Below are positions 1 to 60,174 of a DNA stretch of 64,000 nucleotides, in pieces. The DNA is from Heliocidaris erythrogramma. Taxonomy: Eukaryota > Echinodermata > Echinoidea > Camarodonta > Echinometridae. The notes under the pieces are model-generated. The model was not told the DNA's origin. It worked only from the letters and a program-made list of their open reading frames with translations, and made no database searches. The stretch spans positions 9,040,935 through 9,104,934 of the forward strand of contig CM046863.1 of assembly GCA_025617745.1 (NCBI GenBank). The letters are read 5' to 3'. A program made the translations under genes and the position numbers. The first letter of the stretch is position 1; every line of letters starts with the position of its first letter.

Positions 1-558
1 ACGTCATTCGTGTACTAAGTCCACTGCAAACATAGAAAATGGCGGCCCCCATGCATGTGCAGCAGACGACGGGCGAAAGACGTGTTTGGGGGATCATCAT
101 TCTATAACTTTCTTCATTGCTGTCCAATTCTGCTAAATTTGGTATCAAATTAACCAGCAAGTTACGCTCCATATAACATCAATAGAAGAAAATAAGGTTG
201 GATTTCTCTTTAATGATCAGAACAAGAACGTTTATAAGCCTTTTCAAGACTCTGAACTTTGCTGATACCGGCCTGAACCACTACAAATTTGTGTCAACCA
301 TGGATTTTGCACCATTTCACAACAATGACTATTGTTCGGTCAAGTGTAAAATATGGTTACATGTTTTGGTGTCATTTGATAGGAGAAACCCTAAGCTATC
401 CATAGGTATGAACATATTTTGAAATGTTCATTTGGGGAGATTTTTTCCAGCTGGCAACTTAACAAAAAAAGTACATAAATCCGAATAGCCAAGAATCGTT
501 CAGTTTCTAGTCGGTTTGGAATCGATTTGGCGATATGACTGAGGTATAGTCAACTCAC
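1..558 (-). other. Gene A intron 4 (partial) and window edge
   Basis: No exon is visible. Bases ~203-558 align closely with gene B intron 4 (from ~35848). Bases 1-202 do not match gene B; they include a motif reading ggcggcccccatg that resembles part of the TTAA-flanked MITE family seen at 25319 and 48662, so a transposon copy probably inserted here in gene A only. Confidence 0.5.
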
Positions 559-669
559 CTTTATGCCTATGTCCTTGCTGTCTGCAATACAGGTGACTTT
601 AAGATCTCCAGAACGCCATGCAATGAAAAACTCTTCACCCTTAATCGGTGCCATGTATCCGTGTTCGGG
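559..669 (-). CDS. Gene A exon 4: UPA continuation
   Basis: 111-bp (37-codon) phase-0 exon, acceptor ATAATCAG|CCC at 670/669, donor AAAG|GTGAGT at 559/558. It reads PEHGYMAPIKGEEFF, then IAWRSGDLKVTCIADSKD, a UPA strand region. It is too short to stand out as an open frame and was found by comparing the two paralogues; the gene B copy differs at HGYM (PGYI). Confidence 0.75.
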
Positions 670-3600: not shown

Positions 3601-6600
3601 AGAGGTGTGCAACCGTCCTTATCAGTCTTCACTAAATCTGCTCCTTTACTCACAAGAAAATCTACTACATCGAGATGACCATTATACGATGCCTTTAGAA
3701 GAGGTGTGCTACCACTATTGTCACCCTTATCAAGGTCTCCTCCTTTACTGATGATATACTGTACAATGTCAAGATGGCCATTAAAGGATGCCTTGTGAAG
3801 AGGTGTTCTACCGTCCTTATCAGTCTTCTCTAAATCTGCTCCTTTACTCACAAGAAAATCTACTACATCGAGATTACCATTATACGATGCCTTTAGAAGA
3901 GGTGTTCTACCAGTCTTGTCACCCTTATCAAGGTCTCCTCCTTTACTGATGATATACTGTACAATGTCAAGATGGCCATTTAAGGATGCATTCTGAAGAG
4001 ATGTGCAACCGTCCTTATCAATCTTCTCTAAATCTGCTCCTTTACCCACAAGAAAATCTACAACATCGAGATGACCATTATACGATGCATATTGGAGAGG
4101 TGTCCTGCCCGTACTATCACCCTTATCAAGGTCTCCTCCTTTACTGACGATATACTGTACAATGTCAAGATGACCATTATACGAAGCTTTTTGAAGAGGT
4201 GTGCTACCAGTATTGTCACCCTTATCAAGGTCTCCTCCTTTACTGATGATATACTGTACAATGTCAAGATGACCATTAAATGATGTCTTGTGAAGAGGTG
4301 TGCTACCGTCCTGATCAATCTTCGCTAAATCTGCTCCTTTACTCACAAGAAAATCTACTACGTCGAGATGACCATTATACGATGCCTTCTGAAGAGGTGT
4401 GCTACCAGTATTGTCACCCTTATCAAGGTCTCCTCCTTTACTGATGATATACTGTACAATGTCATGATGGCCATTAAAGGATGCCTTGTGAAGAGGTGTT
4501 CTGCCGTCCTTATCAGTCTTCTCTAAATCTGCTCCTTTACTCACAAGAAAATCTACTACATCGAGATGACCATTATACGATGCCTTTAGAAGAGGTGTTC
4601 TACCAGTCTTGTCACCCTTATCAAGGTCTCCTCCTTTACTGATGATATACTGTACAATGTCAAGATGACCATTAAAGGATGCATTCTGAAGAGATGTGCA
4701 ACCGCCCTTATCAATCTTCTCTAAATCTGCTCCTTTACCTACAAGAAAATCTACTACATCGAGATGACCATTATACGATGCATATTGGAGAGGTGTCCTA
4801 CCCGTACTATCACCCTTATCGAGGGCTCCTCCTTTACTACCGATATACTGTACAACGTCAAGATGACCATTTATTGATGCCTTATGCAGAGGTGTCCTGC
4901 CAGTACTATCAACCTTCTCAAGATCTACTCCTTTGCTTACGACATATTGAACTATTTCAAGATGACCATTGAAGGATGCATTGTGAAGAGATGTGCAACC
5001 GTCATTTTGGCCCTTCTCGAGATTTGCTCCTTTACTCACAAGAAAATTTACTACTTCGAGATGACCATGTGTTGAGGCCTTATGCAGCGGTGTCATGCCC
5101 GCAAGATCAACCTGCTCCAGATCTGCTCCTTTACTCACGAGAAAATCTACTACATCGAGATGACCTTTATATGATGCCTGGTGAAGAGGTGTGCTGCCAG
5201 TCTTGTCACCCTTATCAAGGTCTCCTCCTTTGCTGACGATATACTGTGCAACATCAAGATGACCATGTATTGATGCCTTGTGCAGCGGTGTCATGCGCGT
5301 ACTATTAACCTGCCCCAGATCTGCTCCTTTACTCACGAGAATATCTACTACATCGAGATGACCATTATACGATGCCTCGTGAAGAGGTGTGCTACCCGTG
5401 TTGTCACCCTTATCAAGGTCTCCTCCTTTACTGATAATATACTGTACAATGTCAAGATGACCATTAAAGGATGCCTTGTGAAGAGGTGTGTTACCAATTT
5501 TGTCACCCTTCTCTAAATCTGCTCCTTTACTCACAAGAAAATCTACTACATCAAGATGACCCTTAAATGATGCCTTTTGAAGAGGTGTGCTACCGTCCTT
5601 ATCAGTCTTCACTAAATCTGCTCCTTTACTCACAAGAAAATCTACTACATCGAGATGACCATTATACGATGCCTTTAGAAGAGGTGTTCTACCAGTCTTG
5701 TCACCCTTATCAAGGTCTCCTCCTTTACTGATGATATACTGTACAATGTCAAGATGACCATTAAAGGATGCCTTGTGAAGAGGTGTGTTACCAATCTTGT
5801 CACCCTTCTCTAAATCTGCTCCTTTACTCACAAGAAAATCTACTACATCAAGATGACCCTTAAATGATGCCTTTTGAAGAGGTGTGCTACCAGTTTTGTC
5901 ACCCTTATCAAGGTCTCCTCCTTTACTGATGATATACTGTACAATGTCAAGATGGCCATTAAAGGATGCCATGTGAAGAGGTGTTCTACCGTCCTTATCA
6001 GTCTTCTCTAAATCTGCTCCTTTACTCACAAGAAAATCTACTACATCGAGATGACCATTATACGATGCCTTTAGAAGAGGTGTTCTACCAGTATTGTCAC
6101 CCTTATCAAGGTCTCCTCCTTTACTGATGATATACTGTACAATGTCAAGATGGCCATTAAAGGATGCCTTGTGAAGAGGTGTTCTACCGTCCTTATCAGT
6201 CTTCTCTAAATCTGCTCCTTTACTCACAAGAAAATCTACTACATCGAGATGACCATTATACGATGCCTTTAGAAGAGGTGTTCTACCAGTCTTATCACCC
6301 TTATCAAGGTCTCCTCCTTTACTGATGATATACTGTACAATATCAAGATGGCCATTAAAGGATGCATTCTGAAGAGATGTGCAACCGTCCATATCAATCT
6401 TCTCTAAATCTGCTCCCGTACCCACAAGAAAATATACTACATCGAGATGACCATTATACGATGCATATTGGAGAGGTGTCCTGCCCGTACTATCACCCTT
6501 ATCAAGGTCTCCTCCTTTACTGACGATATACTGTACAATGTCAAGATGACCATTATACGAAGCCTTTTGAAGAGGTGTGCTACCAGTATTGTCACCCTTA

Positions 6601-7154
6601 TCAAGGTCTCCTCCTTTACTGATGATATACTGTACAATGTCAAGATGACCATTAAAGGATGCACTGTGAAGAGATGTGCAACCATCCTGATCAACCTTCT
6701 CTAAATCTGCTCCTTTACTCACAAGAAAATCTACCACATCGAGATGACCATTACACGATGCATATTGGAGAGGTGTCATGCGCGAACTATCAAACTTCTC
6801 AAAATCCTCTCCTTTGCTGACGAGATATTGAACTATTTCAAGATGACCTTGAAATGATGCCATCTGAAGAGCTGTGCTCCCATTTTCATCTTTCTTCTCA
6901 AGATCTGCTCCTTTACTAATGAGAGACTTAACAACATTAATGTGTCCATTATTTGAAGCAAAGTGGAGAGGTGTCCAGCCATCATCATCACTCTTCTCCA
7001 GATCTGCTCCTCTGCTGATGAGATATTGAACTGTGTTAAGATCTCCATGATGTGATGCATTTTGAAGAGGTGTCCAACTGTCATTGTTACTCTTTTCAAA
7101 TCCGGCTTCAGTTCCAAACACACACTGAGCCACGTCGAAATGACGAATATCCAT
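559..7154 (-). CDS. Gene A: ANK-ZU5-UPA protein (ankyrin/unc44-like), 3' end off window
   Basis: Intracellular ankyrin-repeat protein followed by ZU5 and UPA modules; no signal peptide or membrane segment is seen. Four exons read on the minus strand: 7154-3131, 2098-1625, 1268-1030 and 669-559, with phases 1, 1, 0, 0 and GT-AG borders throughout (4848 bp, 1616 codons). ATG at 7154 follows an in-frame TAA about 20 bp upstream, so the start is well supported. Ankyrin repeats fill residues ~24-1336. The last exon visible ends in phase 0 with GTGAG, so at least the remaining UPA and probably a Death domain lie left of base 1. Proteins of this order are known as ankyrins (ANK-ZU5-UPA-Death) and relatives of UNC5; they scaffold membrane proteins or signal through the Death domain. 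The specific role here is unknown. Paralogue of gene B at 32031-41858. Confidence 0.85.
1030..1268 (-). CDS. Gene A exon 3: first half of UPA-type domain
   Basis: 239-bp exon, acceptor TTAAAAG|GC at 1269/1268, donor AGAG|GTATGA at 1030/1029. Phase joins exon 2 as A+GC (Ser) and leaves in phase 0. It encodes FDSFSLITFAHDDP, then DLDLYIDHFSEWWIIAY and GKRVICTPYVPESAP, the pattern of the UPA module that follows ZU5 in ankyrin, UNC5 and PIDD proteins. Length and borders are the same in gene B (36690-36928). Confidence 0.8.
1625..2098 (-). CDS. Gene A exon 2: acidic linker and ZU5 domain
   Basis: 474-bp exon entered at TTTTTAG|AT (2099/2098) and left at GCA|GTAAGA (1625/1624). It completes the phase-1 codon of exon 1 as GAT (Asp), reads QAGGSQKGSESTEEQVDQ, then a Ser/Glu-rich linker (roughly the first 65 residues). 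The ZU5-like core follows, with the family pattern GVKDITVKAITEVPPELLD, IICVGLEMSP, KFSTPVKVMMPHAAIF. ZU5 domains in ankyrins bind spectrin and in UNC5 pack against UPA and Death domains; which applies here is not visible. The gene B exon has the same length and splice sites. Confidence 0.85.
2350..2885. mobile_element. Putative MITE in intron 1 of gene A
   Basis: Begins near CCTTTAAAGGGAAATTCAACC and ends near GAACCGATTCCGCTTTAAT, with partly self-complementary arms (AACTCTCCCATTTG against CGGGAGAGCTGAACG). The same element is in gene B intron 1 at about 38060-38585. Borders are approximate and no TSD was resolved. Confidence 0.35.
2991..3066 (-). repeat. tRNA-like SINE head (intron 1, gene A)
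   Basis: On the minus strand an A-box-like TGGTCTAGTGG (3056-3046) and a B-box GGTTCAAATCC (3012-3002) are spaced as in a tRNA, but a cloverleaf acceptor stem does not form cleanly, so a tRNA-derived SINE or tRNA pseudogene is the better call. A copy lies in gene B intron 1 at 38690-38765. Confidence 0.55.
3131..7154 (-). CDS. Gene A exon 1: about 40 ankyrin repeats
   Basis: A single 4024-bp exon codes for MDIRHFDVAQ followed by about 40 tandem 33-residue ankyrin repeats of the pattern TPLhkASfnGHLDvVqylvSKGaDLeK. Beyond the first few repeats two forms alternate: one ending DFLVSKGADLEK, one ending QYIISKGGDLDK, giving a 66-residue (198-bp) higher-order unit. Repeats are nearly identical in DNA as well as protein, while the first three (SWTPLQNASHHGDL, GWTPLHFASNNGH, GSTALQMASFQGH) and the last (STPLSLASENGH, then YLRSKQALCDN) are distinct caps. 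The donor is AATG|GTAAGC at 3131/3130. The reading frame stays open through the intron to a TAG at 3114-3116, so exon 1 without splicing would end GKPNS. The splice choice is supported by phase agreement with exon 2. Confidence 0.9.
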
Positions 7155-7289
7155 GATTAGAATTACTTTGAATTACTAGCACTCAGAAAGGGAATGTCAT
7201 TTACCTTTGTATTCTCAACTGAATAGGCCTAATAATATACTTTTTTATCTATGGCTCTTTCATTTCATTTTATTGTTTAGCTGCGTGAT

Positions 7290-8290
7290 TCAGATATGGT
7301 GTATATAAGGTGGGTAAGCTGTCCGCTTAGCTAGATAGACTGAGCATGCGATCTTCGTGATAACGTGATGGTACTGCAATGTGACACCTTCGATGCGTGA
7401 TGATTTTTTTTTAATGAAAGTGAATCACTTTCTTCCCATTAATTTTGATTGAATTATTAACGCTTACTCTAGGGTTTCCTTTGGAAACATTCAAGTATTC
7501 CATGCATCCATTAACATATCCAATACATATATGTCACATATTAATCACTTCCTCAAAGTAGTCAAATCTTCGTAGGCATGTAATGCAACGGTTATTCTAA
7601 AAGAAAGTTGCCCATGTCGTCAAAAAGATAGGTGTCGAATTTATCTAGCGTTGCACTCGGCGACATAACTCTAGTGTATTTCATTTGTTGCCGATTCAGT
7701 CGAAATAACTCGAATCCATGATTCAAAATGATCAGAGAGGCAATGTCCTTCAGAGAATTGTTAAGCACTTTACATGTTCAATCTAAATATAGAAACTTCA
7801 TTATTTATCTCACTAAAATAGGCGTAATGATGTCATGTATTTCTATTTAAACTTTTCGTTTTAGGGCCATGGTTCAGCCTTAATAGTCTATATAATGTTG
7901 GTTTGCTGTCCGATTAGATAGCTATGATATCCAGGTGTGGTATGCAGTCGTCTACAACAACTTTTTTGGAGCTGCAAAATGACGTCTTCTTACTATGATG
8001 ATTATTTCACTGAAAATAAATGACTTCTTTTACTTTCCAAACATTCAAGTTTTCCATGGATCCATTAGTATATCCAGTGCACGTATGTCACTTCTTAATC
8101 ACTTCCCGCAAAGCAGACCAATATCCGTACGTGTATGGCAACGGTTATTCCTTAATAAGGATGCCACCTATTTCGTCAATGAGACAGGTGCCAAATAAGT
8201 GTTCCATACAGCTCGACGACATAACTGTAGTTTATTTCATTTATTGCCGAGGTCGATTCAGTAATATCGAGCTTTCTCTAGCTGTGGTGT
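7290..8290. repeat. Diverged tandem duplication of gene A 5' flank
   Basis: Two ~400-bp units, about 7290-7700 and 7880-8290, share ordered segments: a TATATAA motif, GCTGTCCG(C/A)TTAG, GATGATT(T)TTTTC, TTTCC..AAACATTCAAGT, ATCCATTA(A/G)(C/T)ATATCCA, and a GACGACATAACT..TTATTTCATTT end. Block 2 (41950-42470) carries one unit only, and block 3 (52790-53086) starts with the second type. Confidence 0.6.
7301..7310 (-). promoter_or_regulatory. Candidate TATA box of gene A
   Basis: Minus-strand CCTTATATAC lies about 150 bp upstream of the gene A ATG, and the same motif sits about 105 bp upstream of the gene B ATG (41961-41970). Conservation in both paralogues and the distance fit a core promoter; transcription start was not determined. 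The motif also reads TATATAAGG on the plus strand. Confidence 0.4.
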
Positions 8291-8951
8291 TTCTGCTGTT
8301 ACATTCGATAATTGCTACATGACTGGCTTTCCTAACGTGATGCGAGTGCGATGTTCCGCAAAAATATTTGTTGGTAGTAATAATGACTAAATTTAGTTTG
8401 TATTTGCATTTCGACTCGCCAAATAAACAATAGGCACAGTCGACTGGGTTGTCATGAATAGGCAAGGTCAATAGAATTCATTCATCTTGAACCTTCTGTA
8501 GCAATATATAAATTATTTGTCGAATAATATAAAAACCTCCTTTTTATTTCCTCGCGTTCAACGTACCGTAATACAGGTTGAATAGAATTACATTTGTTAT
8601 ATTTTGCCTACAAAATCTTAATCACATCGCCAGTGGCTAAGGTTTTAGCGTTTTGAAATGTCCATTTATGTTACCTTTCCATTGACATGAAAAAGAAATT
8701 ACATCAACATTAGATTTAATTTATATATGGAATGTTGTGATTGTTCCTCTTCACCCTGATATCCCCTCACCCCGATTATAAAGGTATTTAAAACGACAAT
8801 GTTCCCAAAATAATTGGTTTCTCAGTGGTTGACATGTCAACTCGAAATTTCTCCATTAAAAGTGACAACTAGAGTCAACTCTTGTTTTTTGGAATATCGT
8901 GAAATAGTAGAGAAGAACCATCTTCATACTGCTACGGGACCATACAAAAAA

Positions 8952-9772
8952 AATCATGCCAATTTGAGGAAAAAACTCAGCCAAAAACTGATCGTCGGAA
9001 AAGGACAACACCGACCGACCGTAGACGGAGTAATGCTGTCTCGACGCCGGCAGAATCGGGGACAGACGAACTGAACTCCAGTATTGATGATGAACTAAGT
9101 CTTACTGGTCAATCAAGCGGTCACTCCGGGGCCCGAGCCAAGACAATACTGAAAAACGCTATTGAAAAGCAGATTGCCCTTTCACTGCGGTCATCAAGCC
9201 TCATCAAACGCATAGCTGACGATGTTTATGACGTAATAGCTACAAAGCTGGAGGAGCGAGAAAGTTTATCAAGCTGTCAACATGGACTTGATGAAATACG
9301 CAGATGAAGTAGGAGCTATGAAACAGAAACTAACTGAAATGAAGAAGGAAACGAAAACGCTTCAAGATGGGAAGGAAGATGCAGAGTAATATAGTGGGAG
9401 AAAGGGCCTCCGGATATATGGCATCCCCGAAGGACCATGAGAAAAGACAGATGAACTTGTTTTGGATGTGTTCAACACGAAGCTTGGTCTTGCAGTTCAA
9501 GTGGATGCAATAGACCGTAGTCACCGTTTCTCTCCGCGTCCGAGGCAGGATACAGATCAAGATCGCGAGTCATCGACATCGGCATCGTACGCGGGCGCGA
9601 CGAGGAGGAATAAACCGAGACCCATAATTGTCAAGTTCAGCCAATATAACGTCCGCAGTGATGTCTACAAGGCCAGAACGAGACTTAGGGACGTTGATGG
9701 TCCAAAGATCTTTATCAAGGAGGATCCTACTGCCAAGCGGGCCAGTCTCTTCTGGGAACTTGTTAACAGCAA
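8952..9772 (+). pseudogene. LINE ORF1 (RNA-binding protein), 5' part
   Basis: Nucleic-acid-binding ORF1 of the LINE. Visible pieces in order: a basic/Ser-rich start, a helical segment (AIEKQIALSLRSSSLIKRIA), a coiled-coil stretch (EVGAMKQKLTEMKKETKTL), then the RRM-like start GLRIYGIPEG, DELVLDVFNTKLGL and the core PRPIIVKFSQYNVR, KIFIKEDPTAKRASLFWE. This matches L1-type ORF1 proteins. A stop sits in GKEDAE*YSGRKG, another just after GIPEG, and there is a frameshift near 9260. The frame is cut at 9772 by the nested element and resumes at 19363. Confidence 0.7.
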
Positions 9773-9785
9773 CCCTGATAGCAGA

Positions 9786-10745
9786 GAGTGGTAAAAATGA
9801 CGTGATATTGACGTGATATTTACGTCGTGGTTTACGTCTTTTTTACGTCCTGTAATTACGTCAATAAGACGACAACTTGCACCAACGCAAGACATCATGA
9901 GGACGTCTTATTTTAACGTCATCTTTACGTCTTCCAGGTCAGTGAATGACAACTTCATGACGTCTTGCAAATCACCAAATGACTACTTTTGGACGTCTTT
10001 TTGACGTCTTGCAGGTCATTAAATGACCACTTTATGACGTTTTTAGACGTCTTGCGGGTGGTAAAAAATGACGTGATATTTAAGTCATAGTTTACGTCTA
10101 TTTAACGTCCTGTAATTACGTAAATAAGACGACAACTTGCACCAACGCAAGACATGGTGAGGACGTCTTATATTGACGTCATCTTTACGTCTTGCAGGTC
10201 ACTGAATGACGACTTCATGACGTCTTTTGGGCGTCTTGCAAATCACCAAATGACGACTTTGTGACGTCTATTGGACGTCTTGCTGGTCACTAAATGACCA
10301 CTTTAGGACGTCTTTTAGAGGTCTTGCGGGTGGTAAGAAAATGACGTCATTTGGTGAACTGCAAGATGTCCAAAAGACGTAATAAATTCGTCATTTAGTG
10401 ACCTGCAAGACGTAAAGATGACCTCAGAATAAGACGTCCTCATGACGTCTTGCGTTGGTGCAAGTTGTCGACTTATTGACGTAATTACAAGACATAAAAA
10501 AGACGTAAATCACGACTTAAATATCACGTCATATTTTACCACCCGCAAGACGTCCAAAAGAGGTCCAAAAGTCGTCATTTGATGATTTGCAAAGTCATCA
10601 TTTAGTGACCTGCAAAACGTAAAGATGACCTCAAAATAAGACGTCCTCATGACGTCTTGCGTTGGTGCAAGTTTTAGACTTATTGACATAATTACAGGAC
10701 GTAAAAAAGACTTAAATCACGACTTAAATATTACGTCATATTTTA
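9786..10745. repeat. Left subterminal ACGTC array with inverted halves
   Basis: About 960 bp built from ACGTC/GACGT words. The first half (9786-10335) and second half (10340-10745) are imperfect reverse complements: for instance TTGCACCAACGCAAGACAT at 9876-9894 and 10136-10154 against GTCTTGCGTTGGTGCAA at 10447 and 10655. The motif GGTAAAAAATGACGTGATAT recurs near 10062 and inverted near 10528-10545. The segment could fold into a large hairpin. Confidence 0.75.
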
Positions 10746-13015
10746 CCATCTGAACCACTAATTACAATCTGTTTAAGTGTAATGACGACCTGTCAAAAGC
10801 ATTCATGAGCACATGGATACCAAAATTCAAAGTACATACATGTACAATCACTGACAAATAAGTTATGCATAATATACAAGGCAGACATAAAATCAGTTTC
10901 ACATTTTTAATGCCACTGGTATGAAAATCAGCTGCAAACATCCATTCATAAAACATACATAACAATGATAATCAAAACTGATGTGTGAGTAATTATATAC
11001 AGGTATTTGTTAACAGGTGTATTATTAAATCACACAGTGGGAAACACAAGCTACCCTAATGAAAAGAGTTGTGAAAATGAATGGATTTTTGGCACGAAGT
11101 AAAAAAAGGGTAAGAAAATACATTAAGTATTTGAACATTTACCAAAAAAACAGCATCACTGACAAAATTGGAGGGGAAAGTACCTGATTTCTATGGTCTC
11201 AAAAATGGTAATGTTGAATGTACATGAATTACTAACTCATGAAATAGCTTGAGTATAAGATTTTGTTAAGAATGTTTTGCCTCATTTGCATAAAGTAGAT
11301 ACTCAAAATGCTGAATTATTTGCAAAGCATTTTTTTTTCAATTTGGGTTTGAATCTAGATCTTGCACCAGAACAATGTTTTATACAAGAACAAGGAAAAA
11401 TAAAGAAAGTTAATTATGGAACGAAATGCTAGGAATCTATGTAAGACAAGAAACCAAATGGTGGAACTGTAATCAGAATAAGTTGGTTCAAAATAATGCA
11501 AGTTGATTTTACCCTTGAATTTCTTTGACAAACATATTTTTCACAAGGAAAAATGCCTGAATGAAGCATATTAATTGTGCGTAGCATTTCAGTCCAGTTC
11601 ATAACAAATAAATACGCACAACTTGGTGACTATGAAAAGTCCATTATTAACATAAACTTCATAGTGGCTCTTTGAATAATTGATGTACATGTATAACTAA
11701 TGAATTCTCTGTCCTGTGGATTGGCAGACGAATATAGTCTTAGGAATAATAAAATGAAAGATTTTGAGTTATGAAAACTGCAACTCTCAATCATTGCAAG
11801 ATATGGCATATTGACAAAATCTATCAAGCTCTTCTCCTAAAGAAAATGCGCTATTGGTAAAAATACCCTTTTACATCTACCAATATATTCTGCAAAAAGT
11901 ATGAAAGTGCTGAAAATTGCATACACAGTTTCAATTCAGTTCAATTTTATTTTAGTTTCTAATATTTTATATCAAATAAAACTTTGTCATATGTTTAAAG
12001 GTTATCAGGAGTACTTGCAGTGTGATTTCAGTTTGACACTAACTTTACTTTTGAATTGCTTGTCAATTGCCATGTTTTAACTTCAAATTCTACAAATATT
12101 TAGGACATTTTAGGTGCTTTATTTTCATGGAATGCATTCATAAAATGCTTTTAGGTTGGATACAAATGGATGGGAACTCTCTCCATTTTCTTCCATACAT
12201 TACCAATACTCCAGATGACATTTAAATGTACATTTATGGACAGAACTAACTGCAGTTTAGTATAAGTTTAAGTTTCATGTCATGCAATCATGAAACAAGT
12301 AGAACATTTACATTTTATGTGAATAAAACATTTAGCGCTCCTTATGGAGATAGAGGCACCGAAATTGTATATGAAATACATACAAGCATATGTGGAATTC
12401 TTAAGAGCATCCTAAAAACAGATAGTTGTTTGAAATATAGAAGAAATCCACTCCAGAATTTATTCTTCTTATTTCATGAGAAAACATCATACAGAACAGT
12501 ACAAATGTCACACAAATCTCATACAGGAAGATATGACATTTCAAAATTTCATTTTTATTTTCTTGACCAGTCCTTGCAAATATTTAAATGGGCGAGTAGA
12601 TGTCATCACCTCATAATTTTTTTTCAAATAAACTGTACATGGATTTCTAAAAAAACTTTAAGCTCACACTCGTAACACATATCCGCATAGCAAAATGTAT
12701 TATTTCTCCTTTATTTCGGGCGGTGATAAGACAAGTTTTAGATTCTCATAGCTGAAATATAAAACTTTTGTCATTTCTGTATATGAAAAGGATAGCAAAT
12801 TGTGAGGCAATGATATCATCACCTCGCTCATTAAAACACTAAGGACTGGTCAAAAAGTGTTTTTCCCCCAAAATATGAACTTTCATAATGTCATAACTTC
12901 CTTATTTCTTATGCAATATCTTTTAGCATTGTTTCATATTTAATTTGTTTCTGTATGTTTTAAATCTGTAGAGAGGATTCTTTCTTTAATTATTGCCAGT
13001 TGTAACTACAGCTTT
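10746..13015. other. Interior of the TIR element, no gene recognised
   Basis: AT-rich, unique-looking sequence. An open frame at 12277-12675 (plus) has no recognisable domain, no biased composition and no splice partner; I do not call it a gene. Confidence 0.4.
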
Positions 13016-13199
13016 TTACAGATTATTTGAGTGTTCCTCTGTGTCCATTGGCAAGGCTTCTTCTTCCTCCTGCAGTTCTGGAGTTACAGGCCTCCGAAGC
13101 TCCAGATCATTGTTTGGTACGTTTCGATAAATGTACTTGAAGTAGTATTGAATGCCACTTTCGGAGCAGATCTTGTCCGTTCGTTGCCCCTCACAGTCG
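13016..13199 (-). CDS. Candidate 3' terminal exon in TIR element
   Basis: Good acceptor (pyrimidine-rich TTTCTTTTCCAG|C at 13200/13199) followed by a 60-codon open frame to TAA at 13018-13016. It reads DCEGQRTDKICSESGIQYY, then YRNVPNNDLELRRP, and ends with an acidic tail EEEEALPMDTEEHSNNL. No family is recognised. It lies downstream of the DUF4806-like exons on the same strand, but its open frame needs an upstream exon leaving two bases, while exon 14243-14083 leaves one in its better frame, so an intervening exon or frame damage must be assumed. Confidence 0.4.
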
Positions 13200-13478
13200 C
13201 TGGAAAAGAAATAGAATGTGAAAGGAAAAAATAATTAAAAATTTAAATATTACCTCTCAGATCCGAAAGATACTGTATGGCTTCACTTCTTTTATGTCTC
13301 ACATTTAGCAAATACCTGAAATACATGGCCTGAAAATAAACTGCAATGGCCTGAATTCAGGCTTTTGCCTGGAAACTGGCATCTTTGTACACATATGACC
13401 ACTAAAATTGTTTTGTAGACCTTTTTTTTTTGTACCACGGGAGATGGCGAGTTCACTTCTAGGAAACTTTGGCAGTAA

Positions 13479-13636
13479 CAGGCGCGGATCCAGAGGGGGG
13501 CGCAAGGGGCGTGCGCCCCCCGCCCGTTTTGTATGACAAAGTATGCCCCCGGACCCCCTAGATGGCCGTTTGGCTTCGTCAAGCGGAGGGTTCCTCAGTG
13601 TGCGCCCCCTTTCTGAAAATCCTGTATCCGCCCCTG
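13479..13636. mobile_element. 158-bp MITE nested in the TIR element
   Basis: Imperfect terminal inverted repeats CAGGCGCGGATCCAG and CTGTATCCGCCCCTG, GC-rich interior with two runs reading GCGCCCCC, and a 5-bp direct duplication AGTAA on both sides (13474-13478, 13637-13641). Elements with GGGGCGGATCCAG-like ends are widespread in animal genomes. The open frames across it are compositional artefacts. Confidence 0.75.
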
Positions 13637-14082
13637 AGTAAAGATGTTTTTCAATTAAAAACAGAATGCTAGAAGCATAACGAACTTCAAAAGGCACCAG
13701 TTCAAACACTGTAATGAAGCTAACAGCCCTTAGAGGTAAAAACATCTCTGAAGATCTTTATCTTAATTTCTGCCTAATGATGCAAACAACAGTCCTTCTG
13801 GATTAGAGCATTATGGCAGTTAAGCAGGGGGAAGGCAGAAAGAGTTAAGCATACAAACATACCTATTTGACAATATTTTGAAACACTGAAATATATATAT
13901 ATATATATATATATCGAAGTTATATATATATCCAAGTTACTTTGTGATAAATAATGTGGGGGTCCAAAAAATAATTAAAATGTAATCTTCTAGATGTATG
14001 CAACTATCTGCTTATGATCCAAGAAGAAAAGAAAATCAACAGACTCTTCTGAAGATGAGAAAATGTATATACATCTAATTAC

Positions 14083-15070
14083 CAAAGATAACATCTATCA
14101 TCGCCTTATATCCCGAAAACTTGTGCTTCTGCCACGTTGTCCCATCTAACTGAATTGCACAGACAACTGAGGGTCCATCATTGTGTCCAGCACACGCCTT
14201 ACTGATTCTTTGGTGGCCCCTCCACATTTTTTAAGTATGACATCTGGAATAATGAAAGGGAATAGCAGTAAACATGTATTATTCTCACTTTCATGCATCT
14301 TCCTATCTGATTCAAACATGCATAAGATCTCACAATTGAAACCGATACTGATTTCAAAAGTTCTTTCAAACTTAATTATTCCAAGCAGAGGTCAATTTCA
14401 TTATAGGCATGCAAACTCTGGAAGACCTACAAGGTGGATGCAAAGCATTGTTTTTCATCCTGCAAGCTCTGTAAACAACCTGAGGCTGAAATTGATAACT
14501 ATATTGCAAAGAAAATGCATTTAGCAGCAGCTTTGCAAGCAAGACAAAAACAAACTTGCTGGCTGTTTGAAGTCATGACATAGCTGCAGAACAATTAATT
14601 GACCTCTCCTGTATGTAATAATGGAAATATAATATTCTCCAAAAATAATTGTCAATTTCAATTCTGGAATGAAGATGCATGTCACAAACAGTTTTTAATC
14701 CAACTTTCTACAATAAACAAATATGCTGTTGAAATTCTGATAGTTAATTTTCCCAATTAAGTTGAATGTTTGCCTAAATAATTGAGTATAAAGTGCAGAA
14801 GAAAGCTAATGAATCAACTGTTTAACACTATTATAAGCAGATAAAGACACTCACAAATTGCTTTTTTTGCAAGATCTTCCTGAAGGATCGTGTTGACCTC
14901 ACATAAGTCTTGAACGTTATTAAGTGGAAGAGAGGGTATTCCTTCTGGTATATCAGCAATTTCAGCCACTCTGCCCTTCTCCATTTTGGCACGGATTGCC
15001 CCAAGAAGTTTCCGGTTTTCCCTCACCTCCGACGTGACTTCCTCCATCTTATTATGCAATCGTCTCAATT
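14083..15070 (-). pseudogene. DUF4806-type gene, two exons, decayed
   Basis: Exon 15070-14855 (acceptor TTTCAG|AA, donor GTGAGTG) reads LRRLHNKMEEVTSEVRENRK (coiled-coil like), then IPSLPLNNVQDLCEV and LQEDLAKKA. Exon 14243-14083 (acceptor ATTCCAG|AT, donor GTAATTAG) continues in phase as VILKKCGGATKESVRRVLD. It then needs a one-base shift near 14150-14175 to read QLDGTTWQKHKF, SGYKAMIDVIF; without the shift it stops at TAG. The order LPL..dl, L..GG.t...vrr.l, then a G..(W).k..F block is the pattern of the DUF4806 family, which is expanded in invertebrates and has no known function. The family call is from memory of the pattern; the frameshift makes this copy non-functional unless it is a sequence error. 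Confidence 0.55.
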
Positions 15071-15423
15071 CTGAAATTAAATTGAAATATGAGAACATTT
15101 ATTTTTGTTTCTTTTTTGTATTTTTTCCTTATTCAATCGTAAATATTGTACATTCCACTCCAATCAGGGTATTTATATAGCACCAATGTCTAGTTGCCTA
15201 ATCAAAGGCGATGTTGGGACTGAAAAAAATACCATAATGTCTCTTTTGATTTCTGCCTGACACCATACAATTTTAGGCAAATTATTTATTTCTCCCTAAT
15301 TTTCTACCTTCAATTTCATGACATTTTTAATTTAGAAACACATTTGATGTGACATTTGGGAGTAAATTTCATAACCTTTGAACTGGGCCATATTTGCCCA
15401 CGATCTAATCGGCTCATCTCGTG

Positions 15424-15531
15424 TCATGCACTGCCGGTTTCACTGAGCCAAATAGGAACAACATTCATCCAAGGGTTCTCTTGATATTGTGTAGGTGTGA
15501 TTTTGTTCAGGCAGATGGATGGACCGACAAC
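15424..15531 (-). pseudogene. Possible upstream exon of the DUF4806-type gene
   Basis: After an acceptor (TTATGTTTTCAG|G at 15532/15531) the frame reads VVGPSICLNKI, then NPWMNVVPIWLSETGSA and stops at TGA. The NVVPIWLS piece resembles the V.VVP..WL motif at the N-terminus of many DUF4806 proteins. A weak donor CTCA|GTGAAA would join exon 15070 in phase. Speculative. Confidence 0.25.
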
Positions 15532-16679
15532 CTGAAAACATAATGCACGTACAAGCCCTAACAGGAGTATAGGCAATAAAAGACAATCATAGAATATTTT
15601 TGGTTTGTTTAGAAATTTCGAATTTTTCACTCTTTTTTCTGAAATGTACGTATGAACAGATCGCAGAGAAAAGAATAAGTGACATTTGATAAATAAATCA
15701 AATGAAGGAATACATTCATCAGAGACTTGCCTGATGGTGCCTTATATTTAAAAGCACTTCACTCTAACTCTAACAGTTTAATATTACAGTAACGTTAGTA
15801 ACAATATTATTGGACAAAAAACATAGCCTATAGGGTACACTGCCTAACAGTTAGTATTTAGTCTACTTATTTCGATGTTTACTTCAATGTAAGTAGACTT
15901 AACTCTGGCAGTATTTAAATGATCACTAAATGATAATTTGTAATTGTATATATAATTTAATGTCCCATGAAAGTGACAAAATACAGCACTCAGCAGATGC
16001 ATAATTTCGACTGTAATGTATAATAACGGTCACTTGACAAATGTGATTGATATTATACTGACAGTTCTACAAAACAGTATGACTAATAATAACACACGAT
16101 GTCTCACTATGAACATGGCAAACAAAGAAGCGGACAAAATATACAGCTCCTCATTGTACCTTCCACACTTGCTCTGGTAGACAAAAGAATATCCCTTCAT
16201 TGCTATTATGTAAGATTATGTAGAGCAGGTGTCACATGCATAGTCACCTGTTCCACTGCTATTTTTTCACATGCACACACTCCACGCTGAGTCGAGCAGC
16301 GCGGCAATGCACGCACGTGAAACAACGGACGAGTAAAACGATCGCGTTAAAAAACACAAAAAAAAAAACAAAAAACAAACAAACAAAGAAACCCCATTAT
16401 GTCAGCAAGATAATTGTAGGCCTATACATTGCGTACCGGCAAAAGGTACCGGCCGTGCATGCCTAGCCTGCCAGGCTAGCCGTGTATCGATATCACGCGC
16501 TAGTTGAGTGGCTCGATGACGTAGCCTGCAGTCAATACTGTTTCATTTAATTGTATTAATTATCCTTTCTTCTTCTTTCCCTTATGTTTGCAATAGCAAA
16601 AAATTATTTAGCTTTTATATCCAAAGTCTAGCGAATGCACGTTCTGATATCCTTTTTTTTCTAGGGCACATATCGAACC
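15532..16679. other. Interior of TIR element, no gene recognised
   Basis: AT-rich, with an A-rich run (16351-16390) and a stretch with GGCCTATACATTGCG, GTACCGGC and CCTAGCCTGCCAGGCTAG palindromes near 16420-16490. It may hold the promoter of the DUF4806-type gene; nothing specific could be assigned. Confidence 0.3.
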
Positions 16680-19340
16680 ATAAGTTGTATATTGACGTCA
16701 AAATCACGTCATGAACTAGTCCTTAAAAAAAATATAGACATTGTCTAATTAATCCCAAACCGTTCCCATGTTTAGATTTAAACTGAATAATCGTTCATAA
16801 GTGGTAAATAAAATTACCTCATGAACTAGTCATTCGGAGCTGGTCGTCAGTTGGCAATGAAGTCACGTAATAATTAGGTTTTTTTTTTTGGTCTTGAATA
16901 ATTATTCATATAAGTGGTAAATAATTGACGTCAAAATCACGTCATGAACTAGTCATTCTTAGCTGGTCGTGAGTTGGCAATGAAGTGACGTTATAATTAC
17001 GTCGTTTTTTGGTCTTGAATAATCGTTCATATAAGTGGTAAATAATTTACGCTAAAATCACGTCATGAAATAGTAATGGATAGTGCGATTCTTAACTGGT
17101 CGTGGGTTGGCAATGACATGACGTGATAACTGCGTCGTTTTTTGGTTTTGAATAATCGTTCATAAGTGGTAAATAATTGACGTCAACATCACGTCATGGA
17201 TTAGTCATGGATGGTGAAATAGCTGATCGTCAGCTTGCTATGAAGTGACATAATAATTACGTCGTTTTTTGGTCTTGAATTGTTCATATAAGTGGAAAAT
17301 AACTGACGTCAAAATCACGTCATGTGAGTTGGAATAGAAGTCACGTAATATTAACGTCGATTTTTGGTCTTGAATAAGCGTTAAACAAGTGGTAAATACT
17401 TGACGTCAAAATCACGTCATGAACTAGTCATTCGTAGCTGGCTGTGAGTTGGAAATGAAGTCACGTAATAATTACGTCGTTTTTTGGTCTTGGATAATCG
17501 TTCATATAAGTGGTAAATAATTGACGTCAAAACCACGTCATGAAATAGTAATGGATAGTACGTAATAATTACGTCGTCTTTTGGTCTTGAATAATTGTTC
17601 ATAAGTGGTAAATAAGTGACGTCAAAATCACGTCATGAACTAGTCATTCTTAGCTGGTCGTGAGTTGGAATTGAAGTCACGCAATAATTACGTCGTTTTT
17701 TGGTCTTGAATAATCGTTAAACAAGTGGTAAATACTTGACGTCAAAATCACGTCGTGAACTAGTCATTCGTAGCTGGTCGTGAGTTGGCAATGAAGTGAC
17801 GTAATAATTACGTCGTTTTTGGTCTTGAATAGTTCATATAAGTGGAAAATAACTGACGTCAAAATCACGTCGTGAACTAGTCATTCGTAGCTGGTCGTGA
17901 GTTGGAAATGAAGTCACGTAATAATTACGTCGTTTTTTGGTCTTGAATAATCGTTCATATAAGTGGTAAATAATTGACGTCAAAACCACGTCATGAAATA
18001 GTAATGGATAGTGCGTAATAATTACGTCGTCTTTTGGTCTTGAATAATCGTTCATAAGTGGTAAATAAGTGACGTCAAAATCACGTCATGAACTAGTCAT
18101 TCTTAGCTGGTCGTGAGTTGGAATTGAAGTCACGCAATAATTACGTCGTTTTTTGGTCTTGAATAATCGTTAAACAAGTGGTAAATACTTGACGTCAAAA
18201 TCACGTCGTGAACTAGTCATTCGTAGCTGGTCGTGAGTTGGCAATGAAGTGACGTAATAATTACGTCGTTTTTGGTCTTGAATAGTTCATATAAGTGGAA
18301 AATAACTGACGTCAAAATCACGTCATGAACTAGTCATTCTTAACAGGTCGTGAGTTGGCAATGAAGTGACGTAATAATTACGTCGTCTTTTAGTCTTGAA
18401 TAATCGTTCAAATAAGTGGTAAATAATCGACGTCAAAATCACTTTATGAACTACTCATGGATAGTGCAATTATTAACTGGTCGTTAGTTGTCAATGACAT
18501 GACGTGATAATTGCGTCGTTTTTTTGGTTTTGAATAATCGTTCATAAGTGGTATATAATTGGCGTCACCATCACGTCAAGAATTAGTCATGGATGGTGAA
18601 ATAACTGATCGTCAGCTTGCAATGAAGTGACATAATAATTACGTCGTTTTTTGTCTTGAATTGTTCATATAAGTGGAAAATAACTGACGTCAAAATCACG
18701 TAATGAACTAGTCATTCGTAGCTGGTCGTGAGTTGGAAATGAAGTAACGTAATAATTACGTCGTTTTTTGGTCTTGAATAATCGTTCATATAAGTGGTAA
18801 ATAATTGACGTCAAAATCACGTCATGAACTAGTCATGGATAGTGCAATTCTTAACTGGTCGTGAGTTGGCAATGAAGTGACCTGATAATTACATCTTTTT
18901 TGGGGTCTTGAATAATCGTTTATAAGTGGTAAATAATTGACGTCAAAATCACGTCAAGAAATGGTCATGGATGATGCAATTCGTAACTGGTCGTGAGCTG
19001 GCAATGAAGTGACGTAATAATTACGTCGTTTTTGGTCTTGAAAAATCCTTCATATAAGTGGTAAATACTTGACGTCAAAATCACGTCATTAAATAGTCAT
19101 GATTGTAGCTGGTCGCGAGTGGTCAATGCAGCGACGTAATAATTACGTCGTTTTTTGGTCTTGAATAATCAATCATATAAGTGGTAAATAATTGACGTCA
19201 AAATCACGTCATAAACTAGTCATCCAAATAAGACAATACATACTCGTCTTAGAAAGTCGTCACGAAGACGTCGTGATAACGTCGTTTATACGACGTATGA
19301 CCAGTTGACCAGAATACGACCAATATACGACGTCTTTAAG
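16680..19340. repeat. Right subterminal array: ~22 units of ~118 bp with TGACGTCA-type motifs
   Basis: Each unit runs: GTGGTAAATAATTGACGTCA, AAATCACGTCATGAACTAGT, CATTCGTAGCTGGTCGTGAG, TTGG(A/C)AATGAAGTCACGTAA, TAATTACGTCGTTTTTTGGT, CTTGAATAATCGTTCATATA. About 22 units are countable from 16695 to 19195. A ~456-bp higher-order copy is evident (17402-17857 repeated at 17858-18313). Each unit holds three to four ACGT cores, including a near-perfect palindrome ACGTAATAATTACGT. Confidence 0.85.
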
Positions 19341-19362
19341 ACGTCCGTCTGCTATCAGGGAA

Positions 19363-19468
19363 GAAGTCCAAGTCCTGCTGGACCCAAGATGGAAACATCT
19401 TCGCTCTAAGGACACGAGAATCAAGTAAGATCAGAATCAAGACTACACAAGACAGTGAAAACTTGTAA
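19363..19468 (+). pseudogene. LINE ORF1, 3' part
   Basis: Continues the ORF1 cut at 9772. Joined through AA it reads LFWELVNSKKSKSCWTQDG, then NIFALRTRESSKIRIKT and ends QDSENL before TAA at 19466-19468. The CWTQDG.IF motif is typical of the C-terminal domain of L1-type ORF1 proteins. Confidence 0.75.
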
Positions 19469-19529
19469 GAACTCATTTCTTTCCTTCTGACATATCTTCG
19501 ACAGTCTGTATATGAATTATGCCTCAATC

Positions 19530-22245
19530 TACTAATTTGACTCATGTTGAAATTCCATTTTTAAATTGCCGGAAAGAAGTGAAATAATACCATAATGCTT
19601 TGTTATGTGTATACTGTAAGAAATGGGCTCATCTGAAATGTTCACGTGCATCTATTGATACTTTTAACTCTGATACTGATTGGATGTGTGATTTTTGTGT
19701 TTTTAAAGAACTCCCTAAATACGTTAATGAACCTGATATTTCTGTACGATATCAAAATTCTGAAGCATATAACTATCTAAAAGTGTAGAACCAATTTTTG
19801 AAAAATTGAATCCCATTTAAATGTTTGCTCTCTGATGAAAAATTTTGATGAGATCCATGGTATTTTCACTACAACTAACATTCACATTTTTTCTTTATGT
19901 GAAACTCGTTTGGATGGCTTTGTTTCTAACCCAGAAATATCTGTATCAGGTTATAGAAGTGTGAGATTAGACAGAAATAAAAATGGAGGTTGAATTATAA
20001 CCTATAATTATTAAAGACACTGTACCATTCAGTGTTAGAAATGAATTATTTGTTGATGGTCTGGAACTAATGTGATTAGAGATCTGCTTACCAAACCAAA
20101 AACCTTTCTTAATTGTTTATTGGTCTAGACCCCCTAATTCCCATAGTGCACACTGTGAGAAATTTGAAAATTTGTTACAACTCTTAGAGTCATTCACAAA
20201 GGAATTTGTTATATTTGGTGATCTCAGTTGTGATTTGTTAAAAAGACCTATGTCAAGTCAAACGAAAGTTTTGAAGCGTTTGAGTGAAGAATACGATTTG
20301 AAATAATACATAAATAAACCAACAAGAGTTACATGTATGACCGAGACATTTTCAGTGTGTTTTATTCTTCCAATCATGAAAAGGTTTCTTTCAGTGACGT
20401 CATCCCGCTGACTTTGAGTGATCACTTTATGACAGTATGCAATTTTGGGAGAGTAAAAACCATGAAAACGCAACATAAGTATATCTATAGTCGTAATATG
20501 AAAATTTTGATTTAGCTCAATTTAAAATGGATCTCAGTCAAGTACAGTGGGATGATGTATTAACTGACCTTGATCCAACAAGTGGTTTTGAAAAATGGAG
20601 CTCCAAGTTCAATTTAGTTTTAAATAAACATGCGCCATTAAGAAAGAAAAGGATTCGACATAAAGATTCGCCTTGGATGAATAATGCAATTGTATATAAA
20701 ATGCGAGAAAGAGACCGAATGAAAAAAAAAGCTAAAGGATCAGGGTTAGTGAATGATTGGATGATGCATAAAAAAAAAGAAAAATGCTGTCACGGCGATT
20801 ATTAGGAAAGCAAAAACATTATATATCTTGGAAAGTATTGTAAATAATGAAGGTAATTCAAATACTATGTGGAAATCACTGAGACGTATTATGCCTAAAA
20901 AGGTGAATGACAACTTATTCAAAAGATAAGTGTTAATAATGAAGAAATAGTTCAATCAAAGCATATTCCATCATGTTTGAATGACCATTTCGTTAGGTTA
21001 GCATCTAAACGGAAGGGAAATAAAATGTTGGGTGATAATATGGATCAGTATATGACTCAAATAAATTCAAAATTTATGTTAAAGCAGATCAAAACTATTG
21101 ATGTTTTGAAATGTGTCCATGACATAGCAAGGAATAAGGCCACTGGCCTCGATCAAATACCAACCGGTATCGTAAAATATTCAATAGAATACATAGTTGA
21201 ACCTCTAACACATATTATCAATGCGTCATTAAGAGAGGGGAAATTCCTGGTGCGTGGAAACGGGCCCGGGTGACGCCTATTCACACGAGTGGTGATACGG
21301 CTAATCCCTGCAACTACAGACCAATACCGATCTTACCGGTATTATCTAAAGTGCTAGAAAAACTTTTGTTTAATCAAGTATATGATTACCTTTCAAAGAA
21401 TGAACTATTACATAACCAGCACGGCTTTCGCCTAAAACACTCCACTTTGACAGCACTCTTATCTCTCATTGAAGATGTTTGTAGAAAATTAGACAATGGT
21501 TATGTTGTTGGTATTGTAACACTTAGAAAAGCGTTCGATCTTATATCGTTTGAGATTTTGCTAAAAAAGTTAAGTTATTATGGTTTTGATCAAAATTCAA
21601 TATGTTGATTTCAGGATTACTTTCATTGTAGGGAACAATGTACTTTTGTAAATGGTAACTTATCACCGAGCAGAAAAGTAACAAGCGGAGTGTCCCAGGG
21701 AAGTATCCTAGGGCCGTCGTTGTTTATTATCACCCCAAATGATTTATGTAAATCAATCAAAACAAATGTTCCCTTTCTCTTTATGCGGATGACACTTGTA
21801 TGTACTTTGCTGCAAAAGACCCCAAAACATTAGAAAAATCAATAAATGACGATTTGAAATCTGCTACGACATGGCTTTCAAATAATGAACTGTTGCTTAA
21901 CGTTCACAAATGCCAATACATGTTAGCCGGTTCGAAATCAAATTTAACTCGTTTCTGTAATGTTGATATTCGTTTAAATAGTAAAAAATTAAATAGTAAA
22001 ATTTAAAAAGTAAAAAATTACTTAGAGTCTTGGAATGCAAATATCTTGCAATCTTTCATGGAATCTACAAATTGACCATGTAAAGGAAAACGTTTTAAAA
22101 ACGTTTTTTGCTTTAAAGCGCATGAGGCAGTTCATTGACGAAATATTAGCATTAATACTTTATAAAACTTTATACTTTATTAATACTTTATAATCCAGCC
22201 TCTATTCGACTATTGTAGCACAATTTGGATGAATGGTCAAGTAAG
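19530..22245 (+). pseudogene. LINE ORF2: PHD-like, endonuclease and reverse transcriptase, degenerate
   Basis: Segments in order: a PHD-like Cys/His region (LLCVYCKKWAHLKCS at ~19600, DWMCDFCVFKELP at ~19680); an APE-type endonuclease (NIHIFSLCETRLDGFVSN at ~19880, SVRLDRNKNGG at ~19960); a linker (DVLTDLDPTSGFEKWSSKFN at ~20550, HKDSPWMNNAI); then RT motifs NKATGLDQIPTGIVK (21135), NPCNYRPIPILPVLSKVLEK (21303-21362), QHGFRLKHSTLTALL (21420), a substituted LRKAFD block (21520), GVSQGSILGPSLF (21690) and ADDTCMYFAA (21785). Multiple stops and frameshifts; no active polymerase can be made. ORF2 is cut at LFDYCSTIWMNGQ by a MITE at 22250. Confidence 0.8.
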
Positions 22246-22249
22246 TCAG

Positions 22250-22550
22250 TTAAAGGCCAAGTCCACCCTAACAAAAAGTTGATTTGAATAAATAGAGAAA
22301 AATCCAACCAGCATAACACTGAAAATTTCATCAAAATAGGATGTAAAATAAGAAAGTTATGGTATTTTTAAGTTTCGCTTAATTTCGCAATACAGTTATA
22401 TGCACATCCTGCTCAGTATGCAAATGAGGGAACCAGTGACGTCACCCACACACTATTTCTTTTGTATTTTATTATGTAAAATATAGAATATTTTAATCAA
22501 TTTTAATCAACCTTGTTTCACATTATAACAAGGAAAAATTTAAATATTTC
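22250..22550. mobile_element. TTAA-type MITE fragment in LINE 3' region
   Basis: Starts at TTAA followed by AGGCCAAGTCCACCCTAAC, a terminus common to deuterostome MITEs. The other end is not recognised, so the right border is approximate. It separates the end of ORF2 from the LINE 3' UTR. Confidence 0.4.
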
Positions 22551-22751
22551 TTATTTCATTGATTCTATTTTTTTTTTTACTCCTGTAAATATGTTCATCT
22601 ATTACTTGCATCTCTTTTGTTTGTAAATTGTATTTTCCTTGTTTTATATCTATTGTCCAATGTGTTTATCACGGCCTCGCTGAAAAACAGCTTTTAGCTG
22701 AATGTGGGCACAATTGTATATTGTTTTTATCCGTGAATAAATAATATAAAC

Positions 22752-24118
22752 AATACATTATCATTAATTCTGATGACGAAGAGCTTTTTTTAAAGTATAC
22801 CCCGTGAATATCTAATGAATAATCGTAGTCGAATCATGTATGATTTATATATATTGCATAAAACATTGCATGAAACTCTGCCATCATGCCAGTCATCGTT
22901 TGGATGTTGGATGTATGTAGTACATGGTTAAAGTGAACCAAGTGGGTCCGCATTTTTTAGTTTTAAAAATTAAATTTTCAAGAACAATTTTCCACTTTTT
23001 GTTCACCTAATCACCCCGTTTTACGGTATTCAATAAACGTTTCACAAAAGCCGCCGTTTACATTGCGGTCATTACCTGCGCTAATCAAGCCTGTGATAGC
23101 AATTAAAAAGTGCATACAGCCAGTAAATTCCGTCTCACACGAGGCGTTATTTGCTGAAATTAGCACTTTTTTGGTGCGGTCTTTTGCGCGCCATGAAATG
23201 AACATTGCAAAAAAAAAAAAAAAAATTAATAACTAGCGTAAGGGTATATCGCTCTCACTGGCTCTCACTGGTTAGCGCAGGTGCTGACGCCAACGAAATG
23301 ACATCTCTGTGAGCCAGGCTTTAGATATCACTAGCCCATGGGGCATCAAAGGCTAGCCAATCGCTGATGCAGTCTAACGTAAGGCAAATACCAGCTCATT
23401 GTGAACGACAGGAATAATGCACGTTGATAGTGTAAGGTAGCATTATTATGAGAGTATAAATTTGTCTCCATGATCACTTCATCCTATTATTTACATTTTC
23501 TCTCTATTCAACTTTCCACCTGTTTTCTTGAGGAAATTGCTCCACTCTCCTACCTTCCTTTCTTGTCACCCCTATTCACCTTAAATCTTTTGTTCTCTCC
23601 CAGGCCCATTGAACCTTGCCTGCCATACTGTCTACTATGACTATGACTCACTGACCATCAAACCCTGACTTACTTATCACATTACTCATTCTATCTTTTC
23701 TCATTGGTAATTTACTGTTTGCAGACTTCTGATTGGTTATTTTTGTTTATGTACTTGTCAGCCATTTTTAATTTATATTTAAAATATACTTGAGTGCATC
23801 TCCAAACTTCAAGCCTGCAAAACCTGCTTTGTAGAGCCTGTTACAATAGGTTGTTCCTCTTATAATGAAATGGGAGCTGTTTGATTACTTCGAGGGTCTG
23901 CTTGTTTCTAAGGGTGTCTGCGTTCATTCGTTGTGGATGTATGATGATGACAACGATGATCAAGAAATAGGCAAGTTTAAAACGTGGGGATGAATGGAGA
24001 AGCACGAGAGTGTTCCCGTGTCCGCACATAAGAATATTTTGTGGTCCTACTACTTCTTTCTCCCCGAGTTTCGTTTCCTGTATGATAATAATTATGCTAT
24101 CTAGATAGATGTTAATTA
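22752..24118. repeat. Continuation of duplicated flank (block 1 right part)
   Basis: Matches block 3 (about 54767-56133) almost throughout, including the GATGACGAAGAGC start and the CTATCTAGATAGATGTT end. No gene is recognised; both copies share scattered short open frames with no domain. An A-run at 23210-23225 differs in length between copies. Confidence 0.75.
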
Positions 24119-41858: not shown

Positions 41859-41960
41859 GATTAGAATTACTATGAATTACTAGCAGTCAGAAAGGCAATG
41901 TCATTTACATTCATATTGTCAACTGAATATTATTGTTTTAGCTCCGTGATTCAGATATGG

Positions 41961-41970
41961 TGTATATAAG
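41961..41970 (-). promoter_or_regulatory. Candidate TATA box of gene B
   Basis: Minus-strand CTTATATACA about 105 bp upstream of the ATG, conserved with gene A. Confidence 0.4.
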
Positions 41971-42720
41971 GTTGGCAAGCTGTCCGCTTAGCTAGACAGA
42001 CTGAGCATGCGATCTTCGTGATAACTGTGGAAATAGAAATGAAAATAAAAATCAGATCATTGTTTTCTTATTCTGGCATCTAAGGATATACCCTGTGATA
42101 TCCAGTCGTCTATACCAATTTTTGATGGTACTGCAATGTGACACCTTCGATGCGTGATGATTTCTTTTCACTGAAAGTGAATCACTTCTTCCCATTAATT
42201 TTGATTGAATTATTAACGCTTACTGTAGGGTTTCCTTTTGAAACAATCAAGTTTCCACGCATCCATTAACATATCCAATACATGAATGTCACATATTAAT
42301 CACTTCCTCAAAGTAGTCAAATCTTCGTAGGCACGTAATGCAACGGCTATTCTAAAAGAACGTTGCCTATTTCGTCAAAGAGATAGGTGTCGAATTTATG
42401 TAGCGTTGCACTCGACGACATAACTGTAGCGTATTTCATTTGTTGCCGATTCAATGATATCGTGCGGCCTCATAGCTTGGTCGTTAGTGTTATTACATCC
42501 GATTCTAGCTACATGTCCTGTCTGTCCTTACGTGATGCGAGTATGCTGTTTCTGCAAAACATATATTATGTGCTTGTACCGTAATGGTAGTTATAATAAC
42601 TAAATTCAGTATCTCTTGTGACTCAGCTAATTTAACAAAAGGGCCTTTACAGTAGACTGGCTTGTCATGAATAGGCGAAGTATCAATGAAACTCATTCAT
42701 CTTGAACCGTCAGTGGCAGA

Positions 42721-45265: not shown

Positions 45266-45274
45266 CTCCCTTCC

Positions 45275-48560: not shown

Positions 48561-48661
48561 AAGCCGTATAGTCAACAATAAACGTTCGGTCTTACTACAC
48601 GTAACACAACATTGTTATTATTATCATCATTATTGTTTTGCATGACTGATAGTTTAAAGAA

Positions 48662-50930: not shown

Positions 50931-50934
50931 CGAA

Positions 50935-52529: not shown

Positions 52530-52562
<33 letters not shown>

Positions 52563-58482: not shown

Positions 58483-58491
58483 CTACTCCAG

Positions 58492-60165: not shown

Positions 60166-60174
60166 CTACTCCAG

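Follow-up and report, generated by a model that had tools for sequence, protein, structure and literature searches.

The locus raises the question of what kind of element interrupts a long interspersed nuclear element (LINE) in the sea urchin Heliocidaris erythrogramma. The analyzed window, a stretch of 64,000 bp (C11:9040935-9104934) from a 1.064-Gb genome assembly of 26 contigs, contains a 9588-bp insert at 9773..19360 (no strand assigned), for which a preliminary description, made from the letters of the window, had proposed ends but could name no superfamily. Comparison with the genome confirmed that the insert is a genuine transposon nested in an older one, the LINE. We give a probability of about 80% to the reading that it is a non-autonomous cut-and-paste transposon belonging to the animal CACTA/EnSpm ('TRC') elements and that it entered the LINE at the end of the first open reading frame (ORF1). 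The element left unplaced by the first reading now has a likely name, and its ends are proven by an empty site.

The borders are based on two observations: (i) terminal inverted repeats (TIRs), and (ii) the empty site in two other LINE copies. The left TIR, CCCTGATAGCAGA (9773..9785, plus strand), and its reversed counterpart on the right (19348..19360, minus strand) are exact over 13 bp, as the preliminary description stated, and the repeat ends there because base 14 differs between the two ends. Both TIRs begin with CCC, the termini being CCCTG and not CACTA. When up to two mismatches are allowed, CCCTGATAGCAGA has two sites in the whole window, which are the two TIRs; this count alone is not beyond chance, as at least two such TIR-like sites were found in 26 of 100 shuffles. 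In the genome, the exact TIR has 4,828 sites (2408 + 2420) versus 3 (2 + 1) for a reversed control, and the genome-wide search proposed earlier thus revealed other copies with the same ends.

The insert is flanked by AA on the left (9771..9772) and on the right (19361..19362), and these flanks overlap at the LINE junction. A query of 235 bases of the joined flanks produced five matches in the genome. Two uninterrupted LINE copies match the entire query (C4:28133644-28133876, 95% identity, and C8:12609309-12609543, 94%), and both read GTTAACAGCAAGAAGTC across the predicted junction, whereas the window itself is split on the same query into 1-132 and 131-235, with a two-base AA overlap that identifies the target site duplication (TSD). 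A partial LINE copy on C16 covers query positions 133-235. The proposed nested insertion with a 2-bp AA duplication is therefore supported, and no ORF1 homolog deviating from the predicted junction was seen.

Removal of the insert also restores the C-terminal frame of ORF1, in agreement with the preliminary description. The join of 9772 to 19363 translates as ...FWELVNS followed directly by KKSKSCWTQDGNIFALRTRESSKIRIKTTQDSENL with a stop at the end, the joined frame across the junction reads FWELVNSKKSKSCWTQDGNIFALRTRESSKIRIKTTQDSENL and then a stop, and the copies on C4 and C8 run unbroken through the same point. ORF1 is not intact overall, and its open stretch comprises about the last 145 aa. 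The left ORF1 piece matches Pfam Transposase_22 (L1 RBD-like, E 0.17), the right piece alone matches positions 21-50 of Baculo_FP_2nd (E 0.0097), and the joined protein matches positions 1-49 of 53 of the latter profile, spanning the join (E 0.015); all three matches are below the curated cut-offs. The host LINE includes a 5' part with ORF1 remains identified using Pfam (8816..9772, plus strand, start accurate to a few bases) and a 3' part with the ORF1 end, a PHD finger (E 0.0021, below cut-off), and a reverse transcriptase (RVT_1, E 1.8e-17) (19361..22751, plus strand). Its outer boundaries were derived from a duplicated window segment at 54480-56133, from which the LINE is absent: the two matches of this segment, to 8506-8815 (at 54480-54766) and to 22752-24113 (at 54769-56133), are separated by two bases. 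Because this segment skips the interval of approximately 8816-22751, the LINE is itself an insertion.

To characterize the family, we delimited 32 copies by their outermost TIRs: the window element, six long candidates (A-F), and 25 short copies of 0.79-1.28 kb. All copies except the window element were taken from listed TIR sites, all on C1, and listed sites without a partner were excluded (among those fetched, L001, L008, L009, L027, and L060-L063). Identical 2-bp flanks were found in 27 of the 32 copies and represent nine different dinucleotides (AA 6, TA 6, AT 4, TT 3, TC 3, CT 2, and AC, CA, and CC 1 each), so that AA is not a fixed target; the flanks of L051 and L052 are nearly alike and may reflect one duplicated insertion, in which case the count becomes 26 of 31. 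Three-base flank identity was seen in two of the 32 copies (L023 and L050). Thus, neither different ends nor longer TSDs were seen among the other copies. One long candidate, D (C1:30561747-30567710), resembles the family in its ends only, and its flanks do not match; it was kept in the 32-copy table as a miss. The remaining long copies A, B, C, E, and F (11.8, 10.6, 11.2, 26.9, and 24.7 kb, respectively) match the window core at 97.5-98.3%, and the 21-base right end of this long form has 134 genomic sites (64 + 70).

Two structural variations were observed among these copies. Copy F (L041-L043, C1:44418365-44443035) contains an internal segment of ~4.1 kb in four tandem copies (~98% identical), all of them within a single element whose two flanks are both AC. 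One end carries an additional exact TIR in 14 of the 25 short copies (L002, L005, L014, L017, L020, L028, L046, L047, L049, L051, L052, L054, L055, and L059, the last with three), indicating tandemly repeated ends; among the cases listed, the extra TIR is mostly 160-161 bp from the first one.

Both TIRs of the window element are located at the outer borders of ACGTC arrays. The left subterminal region (9786..10780, no strand assigned) has 54.3 ACGTC per kb, partly arranged as large inverted repeats, and the right one (16681..19340, no strand assigned) consists of ~95-132-bp tandem units rich in TGACGTCA with 32.7 per kb; the density is 0.3 per kb in the core and 1.1 per kb elsewhere in the window. 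As read from the end sequences, ATGACGTGATWTTGACGT is present at both ends in inverted orientation.

Length, CCC ends, a 2-bp TSD without fixed sequence, and subterminal arrays together fit the published TRC elements, and the assignment is based on this combination; statements on published elements here refer to excerpts of the cited papers. The TRC elements of Schistosoma (SmTRC1), Tribolium, and Aedes are characterized by CCC termini, 2-bp direct repeats (7 of 14 SmTRC1 copies), multi-kb length (9.2 kb in Aedes), and an encoded Transposase_21 (PMC1636069). SmTRC1 also has an internal tandem-repeat region comparable to the arrays described here, and the Tribolium TIR begins with CCCTAGTAGCACC, by eye alike at 9 of 13 bases (PMC1636069). 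Unlike these elements, the window element bears long arrays of ACGTC in both subterminal regions together with a remnant of a DUF4806-type gene, and no Transposase_21 was found in it. The Hydra element Spongebob/EnSpm-4N1_HM, classed with CACTA/EnSpm, likewise has CCC termini, 2-bp TSDs, a length of several kb, and no exact transposase recovered, whereas its TIR is CCCAGCCAACATTGAC, its length is 5.8 kb, and subterminal arrays are unmentioned in the excerpt (PMC4298943). Plant CACTA elements (En/Spm of maize and Tgmt* of soybean) share a short TIR (13 bp in Tgmt*), repeated motifs in the subterminal regions, sizes up to 20.5 kb, and deletion derivatives mobilized in trans, but Tgmt* differs by its CACTA termini and 3-bp TSD (PMC2613891).

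The gene remnant lies on the minus strand of the core and is regularly present in the long form. Three exons were recognized: 14855..15070, encoding a coiled coil and the start of the DUF4806 domain (Pfam); 14083..14243; and 13016..13199, encoding an acidic tail. The splice sites of the first two exons are conserved in 6 of 6 aligned copies, and the acceptor of the third is CAG in eight of nine rows and GAG in copy C. The gene is dead: the second exon has a stop in the window only and, by reading, a frame break that all six of the aligned copies share, and 13 nt of the last exon are missing from the window relative to the other aligned copies. A composite peptide assembled from the spliced exons, in which sister copies supplied letters and X marks the frame break, scored 27.3 bits against DUF4806 (gathering cut-off 25, E 4.7e-6), and the window's own letters scored 16.7 bits, below the cut-off. 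The first exon matches 147 times genome-wide, with 150 candidates scored out of 151, and these matches represent 142 distinct places. From the 134 right ends of the long form, 100 were listed and the 92 on C1-C14 were compared with these places: for 76 of the 92, the exon is found no more than 20 kb into the element, with direction and strand as expected, and such a right end is present for 76 of the 97 exon places on C1-C14. A DUF4806 profile search of the genome found nothing at E <= 0.001; it also found nothing in 14 control genomes and is hence uninformative.

A Pfam search of six read-through frames of the core (10750-16800) gave no match up to E 1. The longer copy encoding a transposase that the preliminary description had suggested looking for did not emerge: the five longer copies (A, B, C, E, and F), judged solely by ORF length from listed frames of at least 110 aa, showed none. 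Copies A, B, C, and F have no frame above 169 aa, and the frames of 1060 and 320 aa in copy E look by eye like a Ty3/gypsy insert. The family seems to have lost its own transposase. Elsewhere in the genome, Transposase_21 has 14 matches, 13 of them over the cut-off; stop-free frames of 835-877 aa were found at four of these loci (L066-L069), and a protein search with another, L072, gave 50 matches. Beside a Transposase_21 fragment, a 351-aa open frame (L070:2-1054, plus strand) looks by eye like a tyrosine recombinase.

Several results weigh against the assignment to CACTA/EnSpm. The exact TIR is in none of the 14 Transposase_21 loci (3.3-3.5 kb each), no TIR with up to 2 mismatches was found in 13.5 kb around L068, and the surroundings of L066 and L067 contain only five TIR sites at 3 mismatches and no inward pair. 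The CCC-starting ends of L066, L067, and L068 could not be fixed. The Transposase_21 genes of the genome and the tandem palindrome arrays of the GCAAGCTTGC type that lie 0.5-2.2 kb past the transposase frame at these three loci speak for the assignment, but such arrays were visible on that side alone and have a motif unlike that of the element. The nearest of the 142 family exon places is 69 kb from any of 32 transposase places, and among the listed right ends, the closest to a transposase is 39 kb away, with its element extending in the other direction. Five of the 32 copies (D, L017, L023, L047, and L059) have no matching 2-bp flanks, and a 2025 paper describes clade termini that are mostly CA..TG, which the window element does not have (PMC12730594). 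The catalytic partner was thus not found, as no examined Transposase_21 locus carries the TIR; even so, membership in the CACTA/EnSpm family is likely. Under this assignment, a Transposase_21-type DDE enzyme would be supplied in trans by an autonomous relative, cutting at the CCC-starting TIRs and inserting with a 2-bp stagger.

The DUF4806-type gene may be a passenger, a captured host gene without a role in transposition; this explanation is compatible with the CACTA/EnSpm assignment, and we consider its chances about even. The frame break common to all six aligned copies suggests that the gene was already dead before they spread. Using tblastn, no exons of this gene were detected close to the Transposase_21 loci examined (a weak match to exon 2 in L073, 13 aa with E 2.4, was looked at and not used), and the TIR sites far outnumber the long copies, so that short copies move without the gene. 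On the other hand, the exon recurs regularly inside the right ends on C1-C14, and at two of the three Transposase_21 loci tested, the upstream region makes a second gene possible. Similar opposite-strand exons (minus strand, L080:2566-2766 and L078:1128-1280) were found within 5 kb upstream of L066 and of L068 (53% identity over 51 aa, E 1.6e-16), and none was found upstream of L067. They may represent a second gene of animal CACTA elements. This upstream exon had no Pfam match and was not found in the 9588-bp element, and a Pfam scan of the opposite-strand frames upstream of L066 and L067, without L078 upstream of L068, detected no DUF4806. The exon may resemble the N-terminal part of DUF4806/BEN proteins.

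DUF4806 has been described in one paper as a BEN-type DNA-binding domain. In plant En/Spm, the subterminal repeats are recognized by TNPA, which is needed together with TNPD, and each of the two proteins may act in trans (PMC2613891). By analogy, the ACGTC/TGACGTCA arrays may be binding sites for an accessory DNA-binding protein. A more speculative extension, which we regard as doubtful, is that the counterpart of plant TNPA in animal CACTA elements is a DNA-binding protein of the DUF4806/BEN type, encoded by the elements themselves and matched to palindromic subterminal arrays that are specific to each family (TGACGTCA here and GCAAGCTTGC at the Transposase_21 loci), and that the long family is a fossil of such a two-gene system. 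The plant proteins TNPA and TNP1 are not given as DUF4806 proteins in the excerpt, unlike the gene of the element (PMC2613891). An array-binding protein is known in plants, and the literature excerpts mention no animal counterpart; the present family provides, in an animal, many long copies with extended subterminal arrays and a DUF4806-type gene that recurs regularly. If DUF4806 proteins fill a TNPA-like role, an open question on animal CACTA elements becomes testable.

An unlikely alternative is that the element belongs to another superfamily with 2-bp TSDs, such as PlavakaA, Mirage, ISL2EU, or an undescribed one, and that its CCC ends are coincidental. Mirage and ISL2EU have 2-bp TSDs, and the missing cognate transposase is in line with this explanation. 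PlavakaA likewise leaves 2-bp TSDs, but its ends are TGT..ACA, unlike those of the element (PMC12730594), and the joint fit of length, ends, TSD, and arrays to TRC makes a placement outside CACTA/EnSpm improbable. Tc1/mariner was rejected because TA makes up only 6 of the 27 matching TSDs. The idea that there is no transposon, only satellite-like ACGTC arrays and a chance inverted repeat, could appeal to the frequency of paired TIR-like sites in shuffled 64-kb sequence, but the genomic TIR count and the TSDs speak against it, and the two LINE copies with an empty site refute it.

In the window, Rfam gave no match, and a tRNA scan of the window and of nine short-copy loci found none. Outside the element, the window contains a large duplicated segment in pieces that are 74-95% identical (209-8815 / 35854-54766 and 22752-24113 / 54769-56133), including long tandem arrays with a 99-bp unit that by eye look like ankyrin repeats. 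Another tandem array, with 10 copies of a 170-bp unit, is located at 56398-58093. A repeat of ~450-550 bp occurs three times (46689-47138, 58490-59040, and 59622-60167), with 95-98% identity and two of the copies mutually inverted.

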